From NCBI GenBank assembly GCA_017510405.1, contig JAFWNG010000032.1, positions 1-64,000 on the forward strand: a DNA stretch of 64,000 nucleotides, given 5' to 3'. Origin of the DNA: Solobacterium sp. (GTDB taxonomy: Bacteria; Bacillota_I; Bacilli_A; Erysipelotrichales; Erysipelotrichaceae). Position numbers and translations under genes: made by a program. Below are positions 44,105 through 55,667 of the stretch, one piece after another. Under the pieces are notes generated by a model. It had not been told where the DNA came from, made no database searches, and saw only the letters and a list, made by a program, of their open reading frames with translations. Each line of letters opens with the position of its first letter. Position 1 is the first letter of the stretch.

Positions 44105-44136
44105 TATAATTCCCTCAGTGAATATACATGGGGAGG
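44105..44136 (+). promoter_or_regulatory. -10 box and RBS of the hydrogenase-like gene
   Basis: A perfect TATAAT at 44105-44110 and GGGAGG at 44131-44136 place the start at the ATG at 44143 rather than at 44128. I see no clear -35. Confidence 0.55.
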
Positions 44137-44142
44137 ACCATA

Positions 44143-45825
44143 ATGCAGTATTGTCTGACAAGTAATACAAAGGACTGCCGCAACTGCTACAAATGCATCC
44201 GGCACTGTCCGATCAAGGCGATATCCTTTACGGATGACAAGGCATCGATCATAAAAGAAGACTGTATTCTGTGCGGCCAGTGCTATACCGTATGCCCGCA
44301 GGAACTGAAAGTGATCCGGAATGATATCGAGAAGGTCAAGCGTCTGCTTCGTGAAAATGACAGAGTATATGTTTCGGTGGCACCGTCGTTTATTGCCCGT
44401 TATCCGGACAGTGACATCGACTGCATGAAGCGCACGCTGAAGAAGCTCGGCTTTACAGATGTGGAAGAGACAGCTGTCGGCGCAACGATCGTCAAGAAGG
44501 CATACGATGAAATGCTGGAAGAAGACCGGGACGTGATCATTTCGTCGTGCTGCCACAGCGTGAACATGCTGATCAAGAGGCATTATCCGAACTGTCTGCC
44601 GTATCTCGCGGATGTGCTGTCCCCGATGCTCGCTCACGGGCGGGATATCAAGATGCGCTTCGGCGAAGATACCAAAGTGGTATTCCTGGGACCGTGTATT
44701 GCCAAGAAAGACGAATCGGATAAGAACTCGTCCCTTGTGGAAGCGGCGCTCACTTTTGAAGAGTTTGACGCATGGCTTGCCAAAGAGAATATCACGCTTG
44801 AAACGACGGATGAAAAAGACGGAAGAGAGCAGTCAAAAGCACGTCTGTTCCCGACCAACGGCGGCGTTCTGCGCACCATGGAACGCAGAAACGACGACTG
44901 GCAGTATCTGATCTGCGACGGCGTCGAGAACTGCGTACAGACTCTGAAGGATATCGAAGACGGGAAGCTGCATAAATGCTTTATTGAAATGTCATCCTGT
45001 CAGGGAAGCTGTGTCAACGGACCGATCATGAAAAAACAGGCACAGTCGATCCTTTACGGTACCGCAGCGGTCAACCGCTATGCCGGTCAGAAAGACTTTG
45101 AAGGCCTGAAGGCGGGATATGATGACATTAAGTGCGTCTATAAGAAAGACTATGTAAAAGACAAGACTCCGACAGAAGAACAGATCCAGGAAATGCTTGT
45201 CAAAATGGGCAAGGAAGATCCGTCTGCCCGTCTCAACTGCGGCTGCTGCGGCTATGACTCCTGTCATGCCAAGGCAATCGCGATCCTGCAGGGAAATGCG
45301 AACATTGACATGTGTCTGCCGTATCTGATGGAAAAAGCTGCTTCTCTGTCCGATCAGATCATTGAACATACGCCGAACGGACTGATGGTACTGGATGAGA
45401 ATTTCAATATTACCCTTGCCAATCAGGCGATGTGCCGCATCGTCCGCGTATCCCGTCCGGAAGAACTTGTGGGCAGACCGGTCATGGAGATCCTGGATCC
45501 GATGGATTATCTGGAAGCCCTGCAGGGAGAGCGGATCAACCGGAAGCGGGAATATCTGCAGGATTATGACCGCTATGTTGAAAATACTGTCGTCTATGAC
45601 ACAAAGCTGCAGGCACTGGTGTGCGTCATGCTGGATATCACCCGCCAGGAAAAACAGGCGCAGAAAGACCGTGAGCGTATTGAAAAGACCATGAAGATCA
45701 CCGACGCGCTGATCGATAAGAATATGCAGACGGTCCATGAGATCGCGTCTCTGCTCGGTGAGACTGCGGCGGAGACCAAGGTGGCGCTGCTGTCACTGAA
45801 GGATACGATCTATCATGAAAATTGA
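44143..45825 (+). CDS. Sensory [FeFe]-hydrogenase-like protein with PAS domain
   Basis: The 560-residue protein has two 4Fe-4S motifs near the start (CRNCYKCIRHCP and CILCGQCYTVCP). A domain like the H-cluster part of [FeFe] hydrogenase follows, with Cys136-Cys137 (SSCCHS), Cys185 (GPCIAKKDE) and Cys286/Cys290 (SSCQGSC). A further Fe-S motif (NCGCCGYDSCH) and a PAS domain come next (~415-520, HTPNGLMVLDENFNITLANQAM). There are no catalytic output domains. This matches the group of sensory hydrogenases often paired with a PP2C phosphatase, which is the overlapping next gene. It may bind H2 or another small ligand and pass the signal on; that is inference from family knowledge. Confidence 0.87.
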   Translation: MQYCLTSNTKDCRNCYKCIRHCPIKAISFTDDKASIIKEDCILCGQCYTVCPQELKVIRNDIEKVKRLLRENDRVYVSVAPSFIARYPDSDIDCMKRTLKKLGFTDVEETAVGATIVKKAYDEMLEEDRDVIISSCCHSVNMLIKRHYPNCLPYLADVLSPMLAHGRDIKMRFGEDTKVVFLGPCIAKKDESDKNSSLVEAALTFEEFDAWLAKENITLETTDEKDGREQSKARLFPTNGGVLRTMERRNDDWQYLICDGVENCVQTLKDIEDGKLHKCFIEMSSCQGSCVNGPIMKKQAQSILYGTAAVNRYAGQKDFEGLKAGYDDIKCVYKKDYVKDKTPTEEQIQEMLVKMGKEDPSARLNCGCCGYDSCHAKAIAILQGNANIDMCLPYLMEKAASLSDQIIEHTPNGLMVLDENFNITLANQAMCRIVRVSRPEELVGRPVMEILDPMDYLEALQGERINRKREYLQDYDRYVENTVVYDTKLQALVCVMLDITRQEKQAQKDRERIEKTMKITDALIDKNMQTVHEIASLLGETAAETKVALLSLKDTIYHEN

Positions 45826-46987
45826 GATGATAGCGGAATGCGGCTGGCTCTCGGTGAACCATGTGGGAGAACAGCTCTGCGGCGACAGCGTGACCGTAGT
45901 GGATCCGAATGACCACTGCCGCATTCTTGTACTTGCGGACGGTATGGGGTCCGGTGTCAAGGCGAATATCCTGTCGACCCTGACTGCGAAGATGCTTTCG
46001 GTCATGCTGGCAAATAATGTTGATTTTGATGAATGCCTGCATACGATCATTACGACCCTGCCGATCTGTAAGGAACGGAAAGTGGCGTATTCGACATTCA
46101 CGGTCATCAAAGTGGATTACGGCTACCACATTACGATCTATAACTATGACAATCCGGAACCGTTCCTGATCCGGGACGGAAAGAGCATGTGCCTGGATTA
46201 TACCGTGGCGGAGATCGAAGGCAAGAAGATCTCCATGACGTGGTTTGACGCGACTTATGACGACTGCATCGTCATGATGTCCGACGGTACGATCAATGCC
46301 GGAACCGGCGTTACATTGAACTACGGATGGCAGCTCCCGCAGATCCGGAGTTTCATGGAAGCGAACTACCGTCAGGGAATGTCTGCCAAGGCGCTTGCGA
46401 CCACGCTGGTCGACCGGTGCAATGCCCTGTACGGATATGCGCCGGGTGATGATACGACATGTGCGGTCATGCGCATCCGCGAGACGGAACAGGCGAACGT
46501 CATGTTCGGCCCGCCGATCCGTCCGGAAGACGACTTTGCCATGGCAGAGCAGTTCTTCAACCGGGAAGGAAAGCATATCGTATGCGGCGGAACGACGGCG
46601 AAAGTGGCGGCGGCGTATCTCGGCAAGGAGATCATCGCAGACAGCGTCAATATGGATGAGACGATACCGCCGATGTCGCTGATCGACGGCGTGGATCTGG
46701 TCACAGAAGGGCTGATCACCATGCAGCGGGTCGTGGAATACGGAGAAAACTACCTGGATACAAACAGTCAGTATTTCAGCTGGAACTACAGTCTGGACGG
46801 TGCTTCGCTGATCGCCAGCGCACTGTTCGAGGAAGCTACCGATATTCACTTCTCGATCGGCTGCGCAGCCAACGAAGCATACGGCGAAGAAGGAGCGGTC
46901 AGCTTCAAAAAGAAGATGGAAATGGCGGAACATCTCATGGACTGCCTGCGGAGAATGGGAAAAACCGTCGAAGCCGTTTACTGGTAA
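45815..46987 (+). CDS. PP2C (SpoIIE-type) phosphatase
   Basis: The 390-residue protein starts with a PP2C core (GDSVTVVDPND, VLADGMGSGVKANILS, MMSDGTINAG, GDDTTCAVMRI). It also has a C-terminal domain (~245-390) that is distinct from the usual enzyme and begins GPPIRPEDDFAMAEQF. It probably dephosphorylates a Ser/Thr-phosphorylated partner such as a STAS protein. It overlaps the sensory hydrogenase by 11 bases, so both are translated as a pair, and its activity is expected to respond to the hydrogenase. No STAS gene adjoins it; the nearest one is at 41.3 kb. Confidence 0.88.
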   Translation: MKIEMIAECGWLSVNHVGEQLCGDSVTVVDPNDHCRILVLADGMGSGVKANILSTLTAKMLSVMLANNVDFDECLHTIITTLPICKERKVAYSTFTVIKVDYGYHITIYNYDNPEPFLIRDGKSMCLDYTVAEIEGKKISMTWFDATYDDCIVMMSDGTINAGTGVTLNYGWQLPQIRSFMEANYRQGMSAKALATTLVDRCNALYGYAPGDDTTCAVMRIRETEQANVMFGPPIRPEDDFAMAEQFFNREGKHIVCGGTTAKVAAAYLGKEIIADSVNMDETIPPMSLIDGVDLVTEGLITMQRVVEYGENYLDTNSQYFSWNYSLDGASLIASALFEEATDIHFSIGCAANEAYGEEGAVSFKKKMEMAEHLMDCLRRMGKTVEAVYW

Positions 46988-47033: not shown

Positions 47034-47807
47034 TTATTTTCCTTTCTGCAGTGCAGCAGCGATCGCGTCCATCAGGAGCTCAATGAACACAAAGTATATT
47101 GCCTGGTCATCCAGAAATGAAATTGTACTGTCCCGGGAGATCCGCGGAAGAACAATATATTCCTCACAGCGTTTGCGGAACGTCAGTGTCTGTGACATGG
47201 TAAAGCACAGGATCTGACAGTGATTCTCTTTCATGCTGCTCACGATTCTCCGGTACCATCCCGTATTATCCTGAACGGTAAAGATGATCAGACAGTCATT
47301 CTCCTGAAGACTGATCGATACGTCACCCATCAGGGAAGTATCTGAAACAGCTTCCGCGTCAATACCAATTTTGGCGAGACGTGTACGCAGCTGCATGGCA
47401 CTGTTATACGTACGGTTCTGTCCGAATATCTTAATACGGCCTGCTTTAATCATACGGGCGGCGATCCGCTGCATATCTTCGGTGGTTACACAGTCAGAGA
47501 TCTGCAGAATATAGCGGCTGTAATTGGATACAATGGCTTTAACCGGATCGTTTAAATCCGGATCCGATCCGGCGTTCTGGCTGGTCAGAAAGCGTGACAG
47601 ATCATACTTGAGATCGGTATATCCGGTATATCCGATCCGGTTGGCAAAGCGTACAACAGCAGACTTGGAAACATGCGACAGTTTTGCCAGATGATCGATG
47701 TTGCTGCGTGCAGCTTCACGGGGATCGTCCAGTATGACGTTTGCAATGTCGAGATCTGTTTTTGTCAGATCGGCATAATAGGACTGAATTCGTTCTAACG
47801 GGTTCAT
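47034..47807 (-). CDS. RpiR/MurR family regulator
   Basis: The 257-residue regulator has an N-terminal RpiR-type helix-turn-helix (SNIDHLAKLSHVSKSAVVRFANRIGYTGY, ~35-63). A SIS sugar-phosphate-binding domain follows (~105-240, RIKIFGQNRTYNSAMQL). Such proteins sense a sugar phosphate and control an adjacent sugar operon. It is divergent from a PTS EIIC gene, TSUP and sulfatase, so these are the likely targets. The intergenic region has several inverted repeats that could be the operators. Confidence 0.92.
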   Translation of the reverse strand: MNPLERIQSYYADLTKTDLDIANVILDDPREAARSNIDHLAKLSHVSKSAVVRFANRIGYTGYTDLKYDLSRFLTSQNAGSDPDLNDPVKAIVSNYSRYILQISDCVTTEDMQRIAARMIKAGRIKIFGQNRTYNSAMQLRTRLAKIGIDAEAVSDTSLMGDVSISLQENDCLIIFTVQDNTGWYRRIVSSMKENHCQILCFTMSQTLTFRKRCEEYIVLPRISRDSTISFLDDQAIYFVFIELLMDAIAAALQKGK

Positions 47808-47841
47808 AATAATGACCTCTCTTCATTTACAGTATAGCGGA

Positions 47842-47861
47842 TTAAAACTGAGTTTTAAAAC
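47842..47861. promoter_or_regulatory. RpiR operator candidates
   Basis: TTAAAAC-TGA-GTTTTAA (47842-47858) is a perfect 7-bp inverted repeat and overlaps a second palindrome GTTTTAAAAC (47852-47861). Both lie between the divergent regulator and EIIC genes. Confidence 0.55.
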
Positions 47862-47898
47862 AATTTTAAAAAAAGGTAGAAAAAGTTTTATTAGTATA

Positions 47899-47927
47899 TT
47901 GAAACATTGTTTTATACATGCTATATT
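47899..47927 (+). promoter_or_regulatory. EIIC promoter
   Basis: TTGAAA (47899-47904), 17-bp spacer and TATATT (47922-47927) give a good sigma-A-like promoter for the EIIC gene. Confidence 0.75.
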
Positions 47928-47968
47928 TTGGCTGTGAAATAAAACAAGTTTCAGAAAGGGGTTAAAAC

Positions 47969-49288
47969 ATGGACGGTTTTATTGAAAAGCTTCAGAACGT
48001 ACTCGTTCCGTTCTCTCAGAAAGTCAACAACTCCAAGATCCTGAAAGGCATCAGCGGCGGTTTCTCCGCGATGCTGCCGGTCGTCATGGTCGGTGCGATC
48101 TTCACACTTCTCGCAAGTCTGAACATTGGTCCGTATCAGAGCTTCATCACAGCGATCGGACTGAAGCCGCTGCTGGCAATTCCGCAGGACTTCACAACAA
48201 ATATGATCTCTGTGTATGCAGTATTCCTGATCGCCAAGGCTGAGGCATCCGTCCTCGGCATGGACGAAAGAGATTCTCTGGCATCCGGCGTCATGGCACT
48301 GATGGCATTCCTCATCATGATCCCGCTGGGAGTTACCGGTACAGACGCAGAGACAGGCGTTGTCGTAAATGTCGCTGCTGCAGTCAATACAACATTCCTC
48401 GGTTCCGCAGGTCTGTTCACAGCTATGATCGTCGGCATACTGTTCCCGTACATCCATAACTTCTTCATCACAAAGAACATCGGCATCAAGATGCCTGAAT
48501 CTGTTCCGCCGATGATCTCCAAGTCCTTCTCCGCACTGATTCCGGCACTGGCAATCGCCTTCATCGCTGTGATCCTGCGCACACTGGCAGGCATGACCTC
48601 CTACGGCTCCGTAACAATGCTGATCTACGGTCTGCTTAAGGCTCCGTTAACCGCTCTTGCTGCAAGCCCGCTGACATTCATCCTGCTGCTCATCATCTGC
48701 AACATCCTGTGGTTCTTCGGTATCCACGGCGGAATGGTCGCTACATCGATCATGGCTGCTCTCTATACAGAACTGACACTGGAAAACCTGGCTGCTTACG
48801 GTGCAGGACAGGCGCTTCCGAACATCATCATCCAGCCGGCATGGTTCGCAATGGGCAACATCGGCGGCTCCGGATGTGCAATGGGTCTGTGCCTCTGCCT
48901 GGCTCTGTTCTCCAGATCTGCCCGCTACAAGGCACTGAATAAGATCTCCCTGCCGGCAGGTCTCTGCGGCATCTCTGAACCGATGGTATTCGGATTCCCG
49001 CTCGTACTGAACCCGGTCATGCTGATCCCGATGATCGTTGCTCCGATCGCAACATTCCTCCTCGGCTATGCAGCCATGGCAGTAGGTCTTGTACCTTACA
49101 TGGTCGGTGTCAACGTATCCACAGGTACACCGGTACTTCTCTCCGCATTCGCGGCATGGGCTGACTGGAGAGGAATCGTACTGCAGGCAGTTCTCGTAGC
49201 AGTATCCGTCGCAATCTACTATCCATTCTTCCGCGCATGCGACAACCAGGCTCTCAAAGAAGAGCAGGAAGCTCCGGCGGAAGCATAA
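47969..49288 (+). CDS. PTS EIIC, lactose/cellobiose family
   Basis: The 439-residue integral membrane protein has about ten helices and fits the CelB-type EIIC of the lactose/cellobiose PTS: GGFSAMLPVVMVGAIF near the N-terminus, NILWFFGIHGGMV and CGISEPMVFGFPLVLNP. It moves a beta-linked disaccharide or similar sugar through the membrane while EIIA and EIIB, missing here, phosphorylate it. An rpiR gene is divergent, with possible operators between. TSUP and a cytoplasmic sulfatase follow, so the sugar may be sulfated. It may share EIIA/EIIB with another system. Confidence 0.9.
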   Translation: MDGFIEKLQNVLVPFSQKVNNSKILKGISGGFSAMLPVVMVGAIFTLLASLNIGPYQSFITAIGLKPLLAIPQDFTTNMISVYAVFLIAKAEASVLGMDERDSLASGVMALMAFLIMIPLGVTGTDAETGVVVNVAAAVNTTFLGSAGLFTAMIVGILFPYIHNFFITKNIGIKMPESVPPMISKSFSALIPALAIAFIAVILRTLAGMTSYGSVTMLIYGLLKAPLTALAASPLTFILLLIICNILWFFGIHGGMVATSIMAALYTELTLENLAAYGAGQALPNIIIQPAWFAMGNIGGSGCAMGLCLCLALFSRSARYKALNKISLPAGLCGISEPMVFGFPLVLNPVMLIPMIVAPIATFLLGYAAMAVGLVPYMVGVNVSTGTPVLLSAFAAWADWRGIVLQAVLVAVSVAIYYPFFRACDNQALKEEQEAPAEA

Positions 49289-49334
49289 TACAACACATCA
49301 TTCTGTGAAAATTCCCTTGTAAATGAATGATGAA

Positions 49335-49384
49335 GGGCAGCTGAATCGATCTCATGCAGAACGGTCTGCTGCCCGCTTTCTTTT
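49335..49384 (+). terminator. Hairpin between EIIC and TSUP genes
   Basis: GGGCAGC (49335-49341) pairs with GCTGCCC (49368-49374) around an inner GCAGA/TCTGC stem, and CTTTCTTTTA follows. The EIIC transcript may end here partly or fully. Confidence 0.65.
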
Positions 49385-49403
49385 ATGGAAAAGATTGGTT
49401 CCA

Positions 49404-49412
49404 TGGTATGAT
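49404..49412 (+). promoter_or_regulatory. Extended -10 box before TSUP gene
   Basis: TGGTATGAT at 49404-49412 is an extended -10. With the hairpin before it, the TSUP-sulfatase pair may have its own promoter. Confidence 0.4.
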
Positions 49413-49453
49413 TACATTAGTGACTGTGATCCGCCATGGGAAAGGAGGATCAC

Positions 49454-50233
49454 ATGATTTATCTTCTCACAGCAGTAATTGCCAGTTTCCTTGGAGCAGT
49501 CTGCGGCATCGGCGGCGGAGTGCTGATCAAACCCGCACTGGATATGTTTCAGAATGACGGTGCTTCGGTAATCAATTTTCTTTCCTCCTGCACAGTGTTT
49601 TCCATGAGTGTCTATTCCATTGGAAAAGAATTCCTGCGGCCTTCCCAGAAGATCGATTACCGCAGTATGATCCCGCTGGCAGCCGGTGCGGCTGCAGGCG
49701 GAATCCTGGGCAACCGGCTGTTCCGGATGATCCGTGACGCTTCGTCACAGGCAGGGCTGGTCAGCGGGATCCAGGCATGCGCGCTCGGAATCGTCATGGT
49801 GCTGGTGCTGCTGTATACGCTGAACCGGAAGAAGATCCGCTCTGTACGCATTGAAAGCAGTGCGGCGTCCCTGCTGATCGGGCTGGCTCTCGGCACGATG
49901 TCAAGCTTCCTTGGCGTAGGCGGCGGACCGATCAATCTGGCGGTCCTGTACTACTTCTTCTCCATGAACACGAAGACCGCAGCCATAAGCAGTATCTTCA
50001 TCATACTGTTCGGACAGGCTGCCAATATCAGTGTTACGCTGATGTCCGGTGTGCCGGAGGGAGTATCCTTCGCAATACTGGCCCTGATGGTTGCCGGCGG
50101 GATCGCCGGCGGTATCATCGGCCGCGCATTTAATAAAAAGATCGATGAAACAGTCGTTGACAAAATGTTCATCGGCAGTCTGATCGTGATCATTGCACTC
50201 TGCATCATGAATGCAGTCAAATACCTGTTCTGA
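49454..50233 (+). CDS. TSUP (TauE/SafE family) anion exporter
   Basis: The 259-residue membrane protein has about seven to eight helices in two similar halves, each starting with a Gly-rich motif (FLGAVCGIGGGVLIKPAL and FLGVGGGPINLAVLYY). This is the TauE/SafE family, which exports sulfite, sulfoacetate or other organic or inorganic anions. AAAGGAGG precedes the ATG at 49454, in preference to a start 18 bases upstream. It is 39 bases before a sulfatase gene, so it is likely to remove the sulfate or sulfite-type anion released, by inference. Confidence 0.9.
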   Translation: MIYLLTAVIASFLGAVCGIGGGVLIKPALDMFQNDGASVINFLSSCTVFSMSVYSIGKEFLRPSQKIDYRSMIPLAAGAAAGGILGNRLFRMIRDASSQAGLVSGIQACALGIVMVLVLLYTLNRKKIRSVRIESSAASLLIGLALGTMSSFLGVGGGPINLAVLYYFFSMNTKTAAISSIFIILFGQAANISVTLMSGVPEGVSFAILALMVAGGIAGGIIGRAFNKKIDETVVDKMFIGSLIVIIALCIMNAVKYLF

Positions 50234-50272
50234 CCCGTTCTGGAGGGTGACCGGAAGAGAAGGAAAAAAACT

Positions 50273-51754
50273 ATGAGAAAAAAACCAAACATTATTATTA
50301 TCAATCCGGATGAAATGCGCTGGAATACGATGGGACACATGGGAAACCGCGCAGCGTCCACACCGCGCCTGGATGCTTTCGCTGAAACGGAAGCAGTATC
50401 GTTTGAGAATGCATACTGTCAGAACCCGGTCTGCGTACCGAGCCGGTGCAGCTTCTTTACCGGCCTGTATCCGCATGTTAACGGCTACCGTACGATGCAT
50501 TATCTGATCCATGACGGAAAAGATACGATGTTTGCCGAACTGCGCCGGGCAGGATACAAGGTCTGGATGAACAGCCGCAACGATTTCATTGCTGCAAATG
50601 AACCGGGAGAGATGGCTACCCAGTTCGATGAGATCTATACCTATCCCCGCAGTGCCGGAATCAACGCCTCCAGAGGACATCACGTCATTCCGGAATTCCC
50701 GTACTCGCATTATATCGGCGTGGCGGATGAGATCAAAACGGACATCGGCGATACGTTGGCTGCCTGTGAGCGCATCCGCCGCCAGAAAGACACGGACGAA
50801 CCGCTCTGCCTGTTCATCGGCTGGATGAATCCGCATGTGCCGTATGTGACCGATCCGCAGCACTATGACCGGATCGATCCGGAAAAGATGGAAGAACGCG
50901 TGAAACTGAAGGATTGTTCCGGTAAGTCCGCAATGATCCATAAACTGCATGAACTCTCCGGCATGGAGACATTCCCGGAGGAACTGTTTACAGAAATGCG
51001 CCGCGTCTATCTGGCGCAGTGCAGCTATATTGACGATCTGTTCGGCATGCTCGTCGACGCACTGAAAGAGGCAGGCATCTACGATGATTCCCTGATCGTG
51101 TTCATGTCCGATCACGGCGACTTTGCCGGTGATTTCGATCTGCCGGAGAAAGCGCAGAACAGTTTTGAGGATATCCTGACAAAGGTGCCGCTTCTGATCA
51201 AGCCGCCGAAAGGGGAGACAGTCGACGCCGGTGTTACGCCGGCGCTGACAGAACTCGTGGATTTCTATGCGACAGTCATGGACTATGCCGGTGTGGAACC
51301 GGGACATGACCAGTTCGGAAGAAGCCTGCGTCCCGTCATCGAAGACCGCACACAGGAAAACCGGAAGTACGTCTTCAGCGAAGGCGGACGCCGGGCATGT
51401 GAAAAACAGGCAGATGAATACCACAAGTACGGAGAGGAAGGTCCGAAGAAGACAAGCGACTACTGGGCAAAGATGAATGCCGAGGCAGACGATGACGCCC
51501 ATGAAAAGGGAACGATGATCTGCGACGGTACGTATAAATATGTCATGCGTCTGTCCGGAAAAGATGAGTTCTATGATCTGCAGAAAGATCCGAAAGAGAT
51601 GATCAACCGGATCGGTGAAGAAACATACGCGGCGGACATCCTGCGGCTCAAAATGGAAATGCTGCACTGGTACCAGGAGACCTGCGATACCGTGCAGAGA
51701 GAGTTTGATTCCCGCTTCCTGAGTGAGGAATCGCTTCGCCCGAAACAGAACTGA
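50273..51754 (+). CDS. Cytoplasmic sulfatase (Cys type)
   Basis: The 493-residue protein has the S1 sulfatase signature CVPSR with Cys54, which a formylglycine-generating enzyme converts to the active residue. NPDEMR near the start and FMSDHGDFAGD supply metal ligands. It has no signal peptide, so unlike most gut sulfatases it should work inside the cell. Anaerobes convert Cys with a radical SAM enzyme (anSME), which is not in this window. A 39-base gap to the TSUP gene suggests one transcript. The substrate is probably a sulfated sugar brought in by the adjacent PTS. Confidence 0.88.
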   Translation: MRKKPNIIIINPDEMRWNTMGHMGNRAASTPRLDAFAETEAVSFENAYCQNPVCVPSRCSFFTGLYPHVNGYRTMHYLIHDGKDTMFAELRRAGYKVWMNSRNDFIAANEPGEMATQFDEIYTYPRSAGINASRGHHVIPEFPYSHYIGVADEIKTDIGDTLAACERIRRQKDTDEPLCLFIGWMNPHVPYVTDPQHYDRIDPEKMEERVKLKDCSGKSAMIHKLHELSGMETFPEELFTEMRRVYLAQCSYIDDLFGMLVDALKEAGIYDDSLIVFMSDHGDFAGDFDLPEKAQNSFEDILTKVPLLIKPPKGETVDAGVTPALTELVDFYATVMDYAGVEPGHDQFGRSLRPVIEDRTQENRKYVFSEGGRRACEKQADEYHKYGEEGPKKTSDYWAKMNAEADDDAHEKGTMICDGTYKYVMRLSGKDEFYDLQKDPKEMINRIGEETYAADILRLKMEMLHWYQETCDTVQREFDSRFLSEESLRPKQN

Positions 51755-51778
51755 AAAAAAGCACTTCGGTGCTTTTTT
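51754..51778 (+). terminator. Terminator after sulfatase gene
   Basis: An A-run, GCAC, a TTCG loop, GTGC and a T-run (51769-51778) form a classic UUCG-capped hairpin. Confidence 0.95.
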
Positions 51779-52064: not shown

Positions 52065-54101
52065 ATGTCAGATATGGAATTTCAGAAAAATATGTTCAGT
52101 GAACTCCGCATTGTTACTGCGGATCTTTCCGCATCCGGAAAGCTCAGTGATGAGACGCTGTGCAAAGCCGTTACGATGAACGAAAATCTGCGCACGGAGT
52201 ACGGATACATGTTCAATCCCCGTGATCTCGTACGGATCGCGGACGCGGACGCAGCTGCACAGATCGCGGAACAGTTCCGGGAACTGGTTCCGGAAGTGAA
52301 GGCAAAACCGATGTATCCGGATTTTCCGTCGCAGGTCATGGAAATGAGCGAAGCGGAATTCCGCTTCCACCAGTATGTCCACTATTTTTCCACATACGGG
52401 ATGGAATGCCTGTTCGGTGTAAACGTCCAGCATGGCTGGCTGCCGGCGGAAGACGCGGACACCGGCATTACGGAAACGAAGAAAACAGAGAAAGACAAAG
52501 CGCTGTTTGACGCAAAGACAGTCGCCCTCTGCGATGAAAAAGACGCATCGCTTACTGCGTATAAAACGATTTTGTCCCGCCGGGAACGCATGACGGCGCC
52601 GGAAGCGGAGCTTGTGCGGTATGCCGTAAAACAGCTCTCTTCGGAAGAAATGAGCAGTGTAAAAGTACAGTTCAAAGAGAACATGGAATCGCTGTTCGCC
52701 ATCGTCATGCAGGAAACAGAAGGGGATGAGCGCATCTCCCGCCTCAAAGCACTGTGTGTCAACTGCGGCGACGTGCTGCGCGGCTGGAAAGCGTATCTGA
52801 ACAGCGTGCACTATAAGCCGAAAACAAGCGAAAAGCGTGCTGTCGTCCGTCTGCTCGAGACGTATAAGATCGAGGACTTCACCGGGAATCTCATGCTTTC
52901 GAAGAAGAACCGTGACGATGTTCTGACCCTGCTGCAGTACATGGATTACAATACATATTCCCGCAGCGAAGCCCACAGGAAGGCAGTTGCCAGACTGCGT
53001 GACGGCGATCTGCGTTCGTGGGAGAGCCGCCTTAAGGTACTGCTGGCGGAATCGCCAAAGAGCGCGCTGGAGTTTGCTTCACAGAGACCGGGAGAACTGG
53101 TCCGCAAAGCCAACTTCCTGGTCAAAAACGGCGCTTCGAGCGCGGCAGTAAAAGAAATACTCTGTGCGAAAGCAGATGTGCTTTCTTCGCAGACACTGAC
53201 GCGTCTCTGCCTGTATTTCAGTTCACCGAAGATGTGGAATGAATGGTGGGATGAAGCGTCCTGTGCCGTGCTGTACGATATTTTCAAAGCGGCGCTCACA
53301 GAAAAACTGTCACGGATCGATACGCCGCTGCGGGATAAGAAAGTGTTCATCGATGAGGAGAACTATTCCTTTGCGGATTCCTACATTGAGACAAATGAAA
53401 AGTCGCAGGAAGGCGGATATATCCGCTCCGGCATGGCATTCCGCATTCCGGAAGAAGCTGCCACAGTACGTTTCTTTACGTACTGGAATGATAAAGATCG
53501 GATCGATATCGATCTGCACGGTTTCAGCATTGACCGCAAAGGCATCAGATCACATGTCGGATGGAATGCGGACTACGAGAAAAACGGAATCGTCCATTCC
53601 GGCGATATTACCCACAGCAACGCCGCTGAGTTCATTGATGTGAATATCAGAACGGCACTGAAAAACCAGGTGAGTGCCATCGTCACGACTGTGCATTCGT
53701 TTACAGGAGTTCCGTTCTGTGAGATCGAGACCGTTCTTGTCGGTATGATGGCAGTCTCAAGACCCGGCATGAATGTCAACGTCCGTCTGTATGATCCGAA
53801 GAACTGCTTCTTTGCGCATGAGCTTCGTACCCGCGAGTCATATCTGAATTACTGCCGCATCGATCTGGAAAGAAGATGCCTCGTGCTGGCGGCAAGACCG
53901 ATCCGGGATGAAGACGAAGATGTCTTTGACGGGAAAGTCGGATTTACGCTTCAGGATTATCTGACCATCCTGCTGGCACAGCAGAACGCATCGGTCACGG
54001 ACAATGCGGAAGACGCGGACATCGTTCTGAAGCTCGGCAAACCGGAAGAAGAAAAAGACATCAGTCTGACCGATGTCAACTACTTCCTGGACGCAGAATG
54101 A
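52065..54101 (+). CDS. Large TerD-domain protein (MXAN_6230/SCO0854-like)
   Basis: The 678-residue protein has an all-helical N-terminal and middle part, with a segment QYMDYNTYSRSEAHRKAVARLRDGDLRSWESRL followed by RPGELVRKANFL (~295-350). I recall this from the MXAN_6230/SCO0854-type family. Residues ~465-640 look like a TerD-type beta sandwich (WNDKDRIDIDLHGFSID, IVHSGDIT, EFIDVN). TerD domains bind calcium and are tied to Ter stress and phage-defence systems, so a stress or defence role is suggested but not shown. The ATG at 52065 has CAGGGAGGAG upstream. It is a single gene with a regulated-looking leader, and no other ter genes are here. Confidence 0.7.
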   Translation: MSDMEFQKNMFSELRIVTADLSASGKLSDETLCKAVTMNENLRTEYGYMFNPRDLVRIADADAAAQIAEQFRELVPEVKAKPMYPDFPSQVMEMSEAEFRFHQYVHYFSTYGMECLFGVNVQHGWLPAEDADTGITETKKTEKDKALFDAKTVALCDEKDASLTAYKTILSRRERMTAPEAELVRYAVKQLSSEEMSSVKVQFKENMESLFAIVMQETEGDERISRLKALCVNCGDVLRGWKAYLNSVHYKPKTSEKRAVVRLLETYKIEDFTGNLMLSKKNRDDVLTLLQYMDYNTYSRSEAHRKAVARLRDGDLRSWESRLKVLLAESPKSALEFASQRPGELVRKANFLVKNGASSAAVKEILCAKADVLSSQTLTRLCLYFSSPKMWNEWWDEASCAVLYDIFKAALTEKLSRIDTPLRDKKVFIDEENYSFADSYIETNEKSQEGGYIRSGMAFRIPEEAATVRFFTYWNDKDRIDIDLHGFSIDRKGIRSHVGWNADYEKNGIVHSGDITHSNAAEFIDVNIRTALKNQVSAIVTTVHSFTGVPFCEIETVLVGMMAVSRPGMNVNVRLYDPKNCFFAHELRTRESYLNYCRIDLERRCLVLAARPIRDEDEDVFDGKVGFTLQDYLTILLAQQNASVTDNAEDADIVLKLGKPEEEKDISLTDVNYFLDAE

Positions 54102-54188: not shown

Positions 54189-55667
<1,479 letters not shown>

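Follow-up and report, generated by a model that had tools for sequence, protein, structure and literature searches.

A PTS permease linked to a predicted cytosolic sulfatase in Solobacterium sp. and its probable role in the use of sulfated sugars

Results

Gene content of the locus

In the window (the whole stretch of 64,000 nucleotides that was analysed) a gene for an RpiR-family regulator diverges from one encoding a PTS EIIC, and the latter is followed by genes for a TSUP transporter and a sulfatase (Table 1). The preliminary description had placed these four genes here, and the coordinates and profile matches agree with it. The EIIC scores 303 bits with TIGR00410, above the cut-off of 236 for membership in the lactose/cellobiose family, and it matches the structure of ChbC (3qnq) at 3.9e-68. 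TSUP reaches 102.4 bits with PF01925 (TauE; cut-off 32.6), and the sulfatase, with 132 bits for PF00884, carries the motif C54-V-P-S-R58, which is of the CxPxR type. EIIA, EIIB and the sulfatase-maturing enzyme (anSME) had been reported missing from the window; they are indeed absent from the cluster, and all of them are encoded elsewhere in the genome. The 152-nt spacer between EIIC and TSUP had been said to contain a hairpin; it folds unusually stably, at -49.8 kcal/mol (z about -4.3), with the stem GGGCAGC...GCUGCCC and then a short U-rich tail.

A GH1 gene is located 2.4 kb past the sulfatase, with one unrelated gene intervening. Its product scores 758 bits with PRK09589 (cut-off 624), and its nearest structures are 3pn8 and BglA. 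The terminator that follows the sulfatase, together with the intervening gene, rules out that GH1 forms a single operon with the cluster. On the other side of the cluster, at 44128-46987, a protein that resembles [FeFe]-hydrogenases and has FeS and PAS domains is encoded by a gene overlapping one for a SpoIIE-type phosphatase, and this gene pair looks like a sensory hydrogenase pair.

Table 1. Features of the cluster and of its downstream flank, in window coordinates.
Feature	Position	Strand	Evidence
RpiR-family regulator (HTH_6 + SIS), divergent from EIIC	47034-47807	-	domain profiles
Three palindromic operator-like sites: TAAAACTGAGTTTTA (47843-47857), TGAAACATTGTTTTA (47900-47914), TAAAACAAGTTTCA (47940-47953)	47843-47953		same sites in relatives; genome-wide site count
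PTS EIIC, lactose/cellobiose (Chb) family	47969-49288	+	PTS_EIIC and TIGR00410; tree; ChbC alignment
Hairpin in the EIIC-TSUP spacer (possible attenuator or weak terminator)	49335-49374	+	folding, z -4.29
TSUP (TauE/SafE) transporter, a presumed anion exporter (for sulfate or the like)	49436-50233	+	PF01925; sulfatase-linked homologues
S1-type formylglycine sulfatase, predicted cytosolic; FGly Cys54; Arg102/Asp104	50273-51754	+	PF00884; motif; fold; upstream-frame check
Intrinsic terminator closing the unit	51755-51778	+	directly after the sulfatase
678-aa protein that weakly matches the MXAN_6230/SCO0854 RING family	52065-54101		between sulfatase and GH1
GH1 6-phospho-beta-glucosidase, outside the transcription unit	54201-55667	+	profile; structures; G043 neighbour (L059)

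Operator-like sites between RpiR and EIIC

The three palindromic sites in the spacer between RpiR and EIIC have the form TRAAAC(NN or NNN)GTTTYA. The second of them, TGAAACATTGTTTTA, overlaps the EIIC -35 element, TTGAAA at 47899. This arrangement recurs in close relatives; in less close ones the place is taken by a variant, TGAAAT...TTTTA. Judged from these sequences, RpiR is the protein that would bind the palindromes. Exact 14-bp sites occur only twice in the whole 3.27-Mb genome, once in this spacer and once between unrelated housekeeping-type genes (C43:86410). The exact-match genome search found no second copy upstream of TSUP, of GH1 or of the EIIB-EIIA pair on contig C12 that is discussed below.

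Linkage of the permease to a sulfatase

Among 273 genomes of the same family, 17 orthologs of the EIIC, defined by at least 45% identity, were found in seven genera. A sulfatase gene adjoins every one of these on the same strand, counting G248, where a contig end truncates the sulfatase gene. Sampling across the class added two testable loci, from another family of the order. Both read RpiR-EIIC-sulfatase, have an anSME gene next to these and are followed by CHR transporters. The contig of a third class-wide ortholog ends before any sulfatase is visible, and there RpiR and anSME are present. In total, an S1 sulfatase adjoins the EIIC in 19/19 checkable loci, from nine genera and two families, and a divergent RpiR gene is present in nearly all of them. 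No adjoining sulfatase was seen for the 15 EIICs examined with less than 45% identity, two of which are near contig ends; several of these adjoin GH1 or YdjC genes instead. The boundary at 45% between sulfatase-linked and unlinked EIICs is sharp. Adjacency of an EIIC and a sulfatase would be expected by chance at about 0.9% per locus, and since the loci share ancestry the resulting P value is indicative only.

These data bear on the notion that the four genes are chance neighbours with unrelated functions, as the hairpin between EIIC and TSUP and the lack of TSUP from the loci of close relatives might suggest. In view of the 19 linked loci this is scarcely credible. Chance adjacency of EIIC and sulfatase is ruled out by the linkage, a refutation that is limited to this pair and does not cover TSUP. 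Recurrence of the four-gene order had been anticipated, and this was borne out for RpiR, EIIC and the sulfatase but not for TSUP, which intervenes between EIIC and sulfatase in the window genome only. The same sulfatase is found without this EIIC in many genomes of the genus and is therefore not tied to a single importer. The linkage is so strict that a group of PTS permeases can be delimited by the sulfatase that accompanies them, and whether the PTS moves sulfated sugars thereby becomes directly testable.

Comparison of the linked permeases with ChbC, the diacetylchitobiose permease of the same EIIC family, shows that the transport histidine and glutamate of the latter (H250 and E334) are kept in the window EIIC as H253 and E337. 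Among the 19 sulfatase-linked EIICs, the position of Trp382 of ChbC is never Trp, and Trp292 is invariant. Between linked and unlinked EIICs no clear basic residue that might signal sulfate binding distinguished the two groups; Lys66 is commoner in the linked ones, yet not exclusive to them.

Two types of sulfatase beside one permease

In the EIIC tree the window protein and those of four close relatives are nested within a clade of nine (support 97/100), the remaining members of which are accompanied by a different type of sulfatase. In the sulfatase tree a long branch (1.66, support 100/100) lies between these two types. Taken together, the two trees imply one of two histories: either one sulfatase replaced another beside an RpiR-EIIC pair that remained in place, or this pair was itself relocated to the side of a different sulfatase. 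Two genomes, G025 and G070, share common surroundings with and without RpiR-EIIC. A swap of sulfatases beside the same permease suggests that it is the permease that defines the substrate class.

The sulfatase

The N-terminus of the sulfatase is MRKKPNIIIINPDE, and no start codon is in frame anywhere upstream of its ATG as far back as the end of TSUP. These two facts leave no room for a signal peptide, in agreement with the preliminary description. Gut sulfatases have been studied mostly as exported enzymes of Bacteroidetes. The CxPSR formylglycine motif is invariant in 27 relatives. An AlphaFold model built on a 27-row alignment reached a pLDDT of 85.9 (a single-sequence version, at 34, was discarded), and its fold is that of S1 sulfatases, with Z of 37-40. 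The best structural alignments were to SpAS2, PsS1_NC, the phosphonate monoester hydrolases 4uph and 2vqr, and BT1918.

Of the residues expected at the metal and sulfate site (Asp, Asp/Glu/Gln, Lys, His, His, Asp, His/Asn, Lys), the metal ligands and most of those that bind sulfate are kept, including D13, E14, H188, D280, H281 and K293. In the stretch that usually reads G-K-x-H, however, Arg102-Asn-Asp104 (50576-50584) replaces Lys-x-His, and this change is common to nearly all members of both EIIC-linked sulfatase types. With the usual Lys and His replaced by Arg and Asp, it cannot be taken for granted that the enzyme hydrolyses an ordinary sulfate ester. The enzyme could instead be a formylglycine hydrolase of another ester, of the phosphodiester or phosphonate type, with TSUP serving something else. 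In addition to the two substitutions, the phosphonate monoester hydrolases among the top fold matches speak for this, but the sulfatases SpAS2, PsS1_NC and BT1918 match equally well or better, and linkage to TSUP, CHR and anSME is recurrent. We therefore consider it very unlikely that the enzyme acts on an ester other than sulfate.

Candidate exporters

Although TSUP was not seen in this position elsewhere, and no similar TSUP was found in the close relatives G053, G025, G016 and G062, homologues are located near a sulfatase in 11/24 loci examined, as compared with about 7% expected per locus, and G114 has one near its EIIC-sulfatase cluster. In G057, G114 and G285 the cluster has pairs of genes for chromate transporters (CHR, PF02417) nearby, as does a related sulfatase in G077. 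Since CHR genes are frequent in these genomes, little can be read from their presence by itself. Because chromate is an analogue of sulfate, TSUP and CHR may be viewed as two unrelated carrier families at EIIC-sulfatase loci. That transporters of the export type would be found near such sulfatases is upheld by this recurrence, and TSUP presumably exports sulfate or a related anion. The clearest self-contained version of the system is an uninterrupted RpiR-EIIBC-sulfatase-TSUP-EIIA-anSME run with a PTS of the glucose type (G009, L198:2590-6776).

Partners encoded elsewhere

In many loci the cluster also includes anSME, EIIA/EIIB, a transporter of the TSUP or chromate type, or a 6-phospho-beta-glucosidase. 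anSME is within about 6 kb of EIIC in 9/20 loci with an EIIC ortholog, and 19 of these 20 genomes encode the enzyme. As had been expected, the window genome has it too, in two clear copies. The copy on contig C39 is 40-63% identical to the cluster-linked anSMEs, and 58-63% to those of the nearest loci, whereas the identity of the C3 copy is about 30%. On these values the C39 protein is the ortholog of the cluster-linked type and the best candidate for the maturation enzyme.

The search for EIIA and EIIB of the same PTS family elsewhere was likewise successful, with EIIA encoded on C5 and C12 and EIIB on C12 and C15. The C5 EIIA goes with a set of the lactose type that also contains tagatose-pathway-like genes and a GH1 gene. 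EIIB-EIIA genes adjoin the cluster in G139 and G254, as does GH1, and the C12 EIIB-EIIA pair is 51% and 61% identical to the pair of G139. No EIIC was seen next to the C12 genes, which are close to a contig end beyond which one may lie. The C12 pair is the best candidate to serve the window EIIC.

In G016, G062, G114, G139, G093, G193 and G254 the cluster has a GH1 gene in its vicinity. EIIC, sulfatase and GH1 also occur together in the isolate Erysipelotrichaceae bacterium NK3D112 (loci L124 and L053). In G043 a GH1 that is 96% identical to that of the window is directly downstream of the orthologous sulfatase, with no gene for the 678-aa protein between them. The window GH1 possibly belongs to the same pathway.

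Two other regions of the same genome (G000) may be recorded here. The first, L093:1764-7504 on C21, is a second PTS-sulfatase cluster, with GH1, a divergent RpiR, an EIIC (about 30% identical), a 151-aa protein without a Pfam match and a different sulfatase (motif CMPAR). The second, L074 (C15:222000-241963), is an ABC-importer counterpart, in which genes for a binding protein, a permease, two sulfatases, an esterase, a TSUP (56%) and a GH1 occur in a row.

Discussion

Relation to known systems

The idea of PTS uptake joined to desulfation and export is already known from pneumococcus. In 2012 an island of S. pneumoniae, SPH1922-SPH1930, was described that encodes a lactose-type PTS, a sulfatase, a maturation enzyme and a TauE exporter (PMC3302838, PMC3283741); uptake of sulfated sugars and export of the freed anion were proposed (PMC3302838). 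The island contributes to fitness in mice, but sulfatase activity on 4-MU-sulfate was undetectable, which weighs against the pathway proposed below as well (PMC3283741). In gene content the two loci are alike: each has a lactose-type EIIC clustered with a sulfatase, a TauE exporter and a divergent regulator. However, the regulator is of the ROK/MarR type in pneumococcus and an RpiR in the window, and the pneumococcal operon has two EIICs, EIIA, EIIB, a ComA-like gene and a linked anSME, whereas the window cluster has a single EIIC. Because its anSME and EIIA/EIIB are unlinked, though linked in several relatives, we class the window cluster as a variant of the pneumococcal kind and not as a member.

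Two further systems offer partial parallels. In the chondroitin sulfate operon of Proteus vulgaris, too, a putative sulfatase accompanies putative PTS genes (PMC9067506), but it includes chondroitin lyases and an unsaturated glucuronyl hydrolase, none of which was seen at the window locus. In Streptobacillus moniliformis, sulfated glycosaminoglycan disaccharides enter intact and the sulfatase is predicted to be cytosolic, as in the window; import there is by an ABC transporter without phosphorylation, in place of a PTS (PMC5430744). A search of the available literature found no description of the RpiR-type variant, of the strict pairing of permease and sulfatase, of the sulfatase exchange or of the two exporter families.

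A probable pathway and its substrate

As a whole, we consider it probable that the cluster is catabolic and handles a sulfated sugar or sulfated beta-glycoside by PTS uptake, cytosolic desulfation and anion export. RpiR would control the divergent EIIC promoter. EIIC, with EIIB-EIIA from elsewhere (the C12 pair being the candidate), would import the sulfated compound and phosphorylate its free O6. The sulfatase, its formylglycine matured by anSME (perhaps that of C39), would then remove the sulfate in the cytosol, GH1 would cleave the phosphorylated glycoside, and TSUP would export the freed sulfate. Against this pathway counts the fact that GH1, EIIA/EIIB and anSME are all unlinked to the cluster in the window genome. 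The preliminary description held that the sulfate must sit away from O6 if O6 is phosphorylated, and this is sound on chemical grounds: with O6 taken by the PTS, sulfate at that position is excluded. A similar argument, that a sulfate at C6 makes a sugar unsuitable for the PTS, has been published (PMC5430744).

The hints as to the substrate diverge, because deacetylases of the YdjC/ChbG type point to an amino sugar and 6-phospho-beta-glucosidases to a glucoside. One possible substrate, which we put forward tentatively, is a host-type amino-sugar disaccharide of the mucin, keratan or chondroitin type, with sulfate at O3 or O4 or on the second residue. In G025, G044, G063, G070 and G069 the orthologous sulfatase or its RpiR-EIIC pair is flanked by YdjC/ChbG-type deacetylases, and in G060 one is near the sulfatase; YdjC was not seen at the window locus. 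By sequence, the second-best solved match of the sulfatase is BT1918_S1_46 (7oz8, 1.9e-36), a GlcNAc3S,6S 3-O-sulfatase (PMC9067506), but the identity is only 24-27%. The pneumococcal island has also been ascribed to mucin sugars (PMC3302838), whereas the GH1 enzymes near the loci are of the 6-phospho-beta-glucosidase type.

A rather unlikely substrate is a sulfated beta-glucoside of plants, including glucosinolates, which are N-sulfated thioglucosides; it would be taken up by the PTS, desulfated and cleaved by the 6-phospho-beta-glucosidase. Such enzymes recur in the clusters, many relatives come from the rumen or ruminant gut according to their record titles, and the breakdown of sinigrin by E. 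coli has been linked to bglA/ascB and a PTS (PMC6767122). The YdjC links and the pneumococcal analogue, however, favour amino sugars. Moreover, to our knowledge the breakdown of glucosinolates by thioglucosidase requires no sulfatase. Extended to the whole group, the glucoside reading would make this a clade of Lac-family permeases dedicated to sulfated beta-glucosides, perhaps glucosinolates in the ruminant gut, in which O6 phosphorylation is coupled to cytosolic desulfation by Arg/Asp-site sulfatases and to export by interchangeable TSUP or CHR carriers. We regard this extension as unlikely.

Apart from the PTS-linked loci, a set of genes in Streptococcus moroccensis (L136:2728-13397) encodes a GPH-type sugar transporter, two sulfatases and an anSME, followed by phosphofructokinase-, aldolase- and PGI-like proteins, and it looks like a sulfated-sugar pathway without a PTS.
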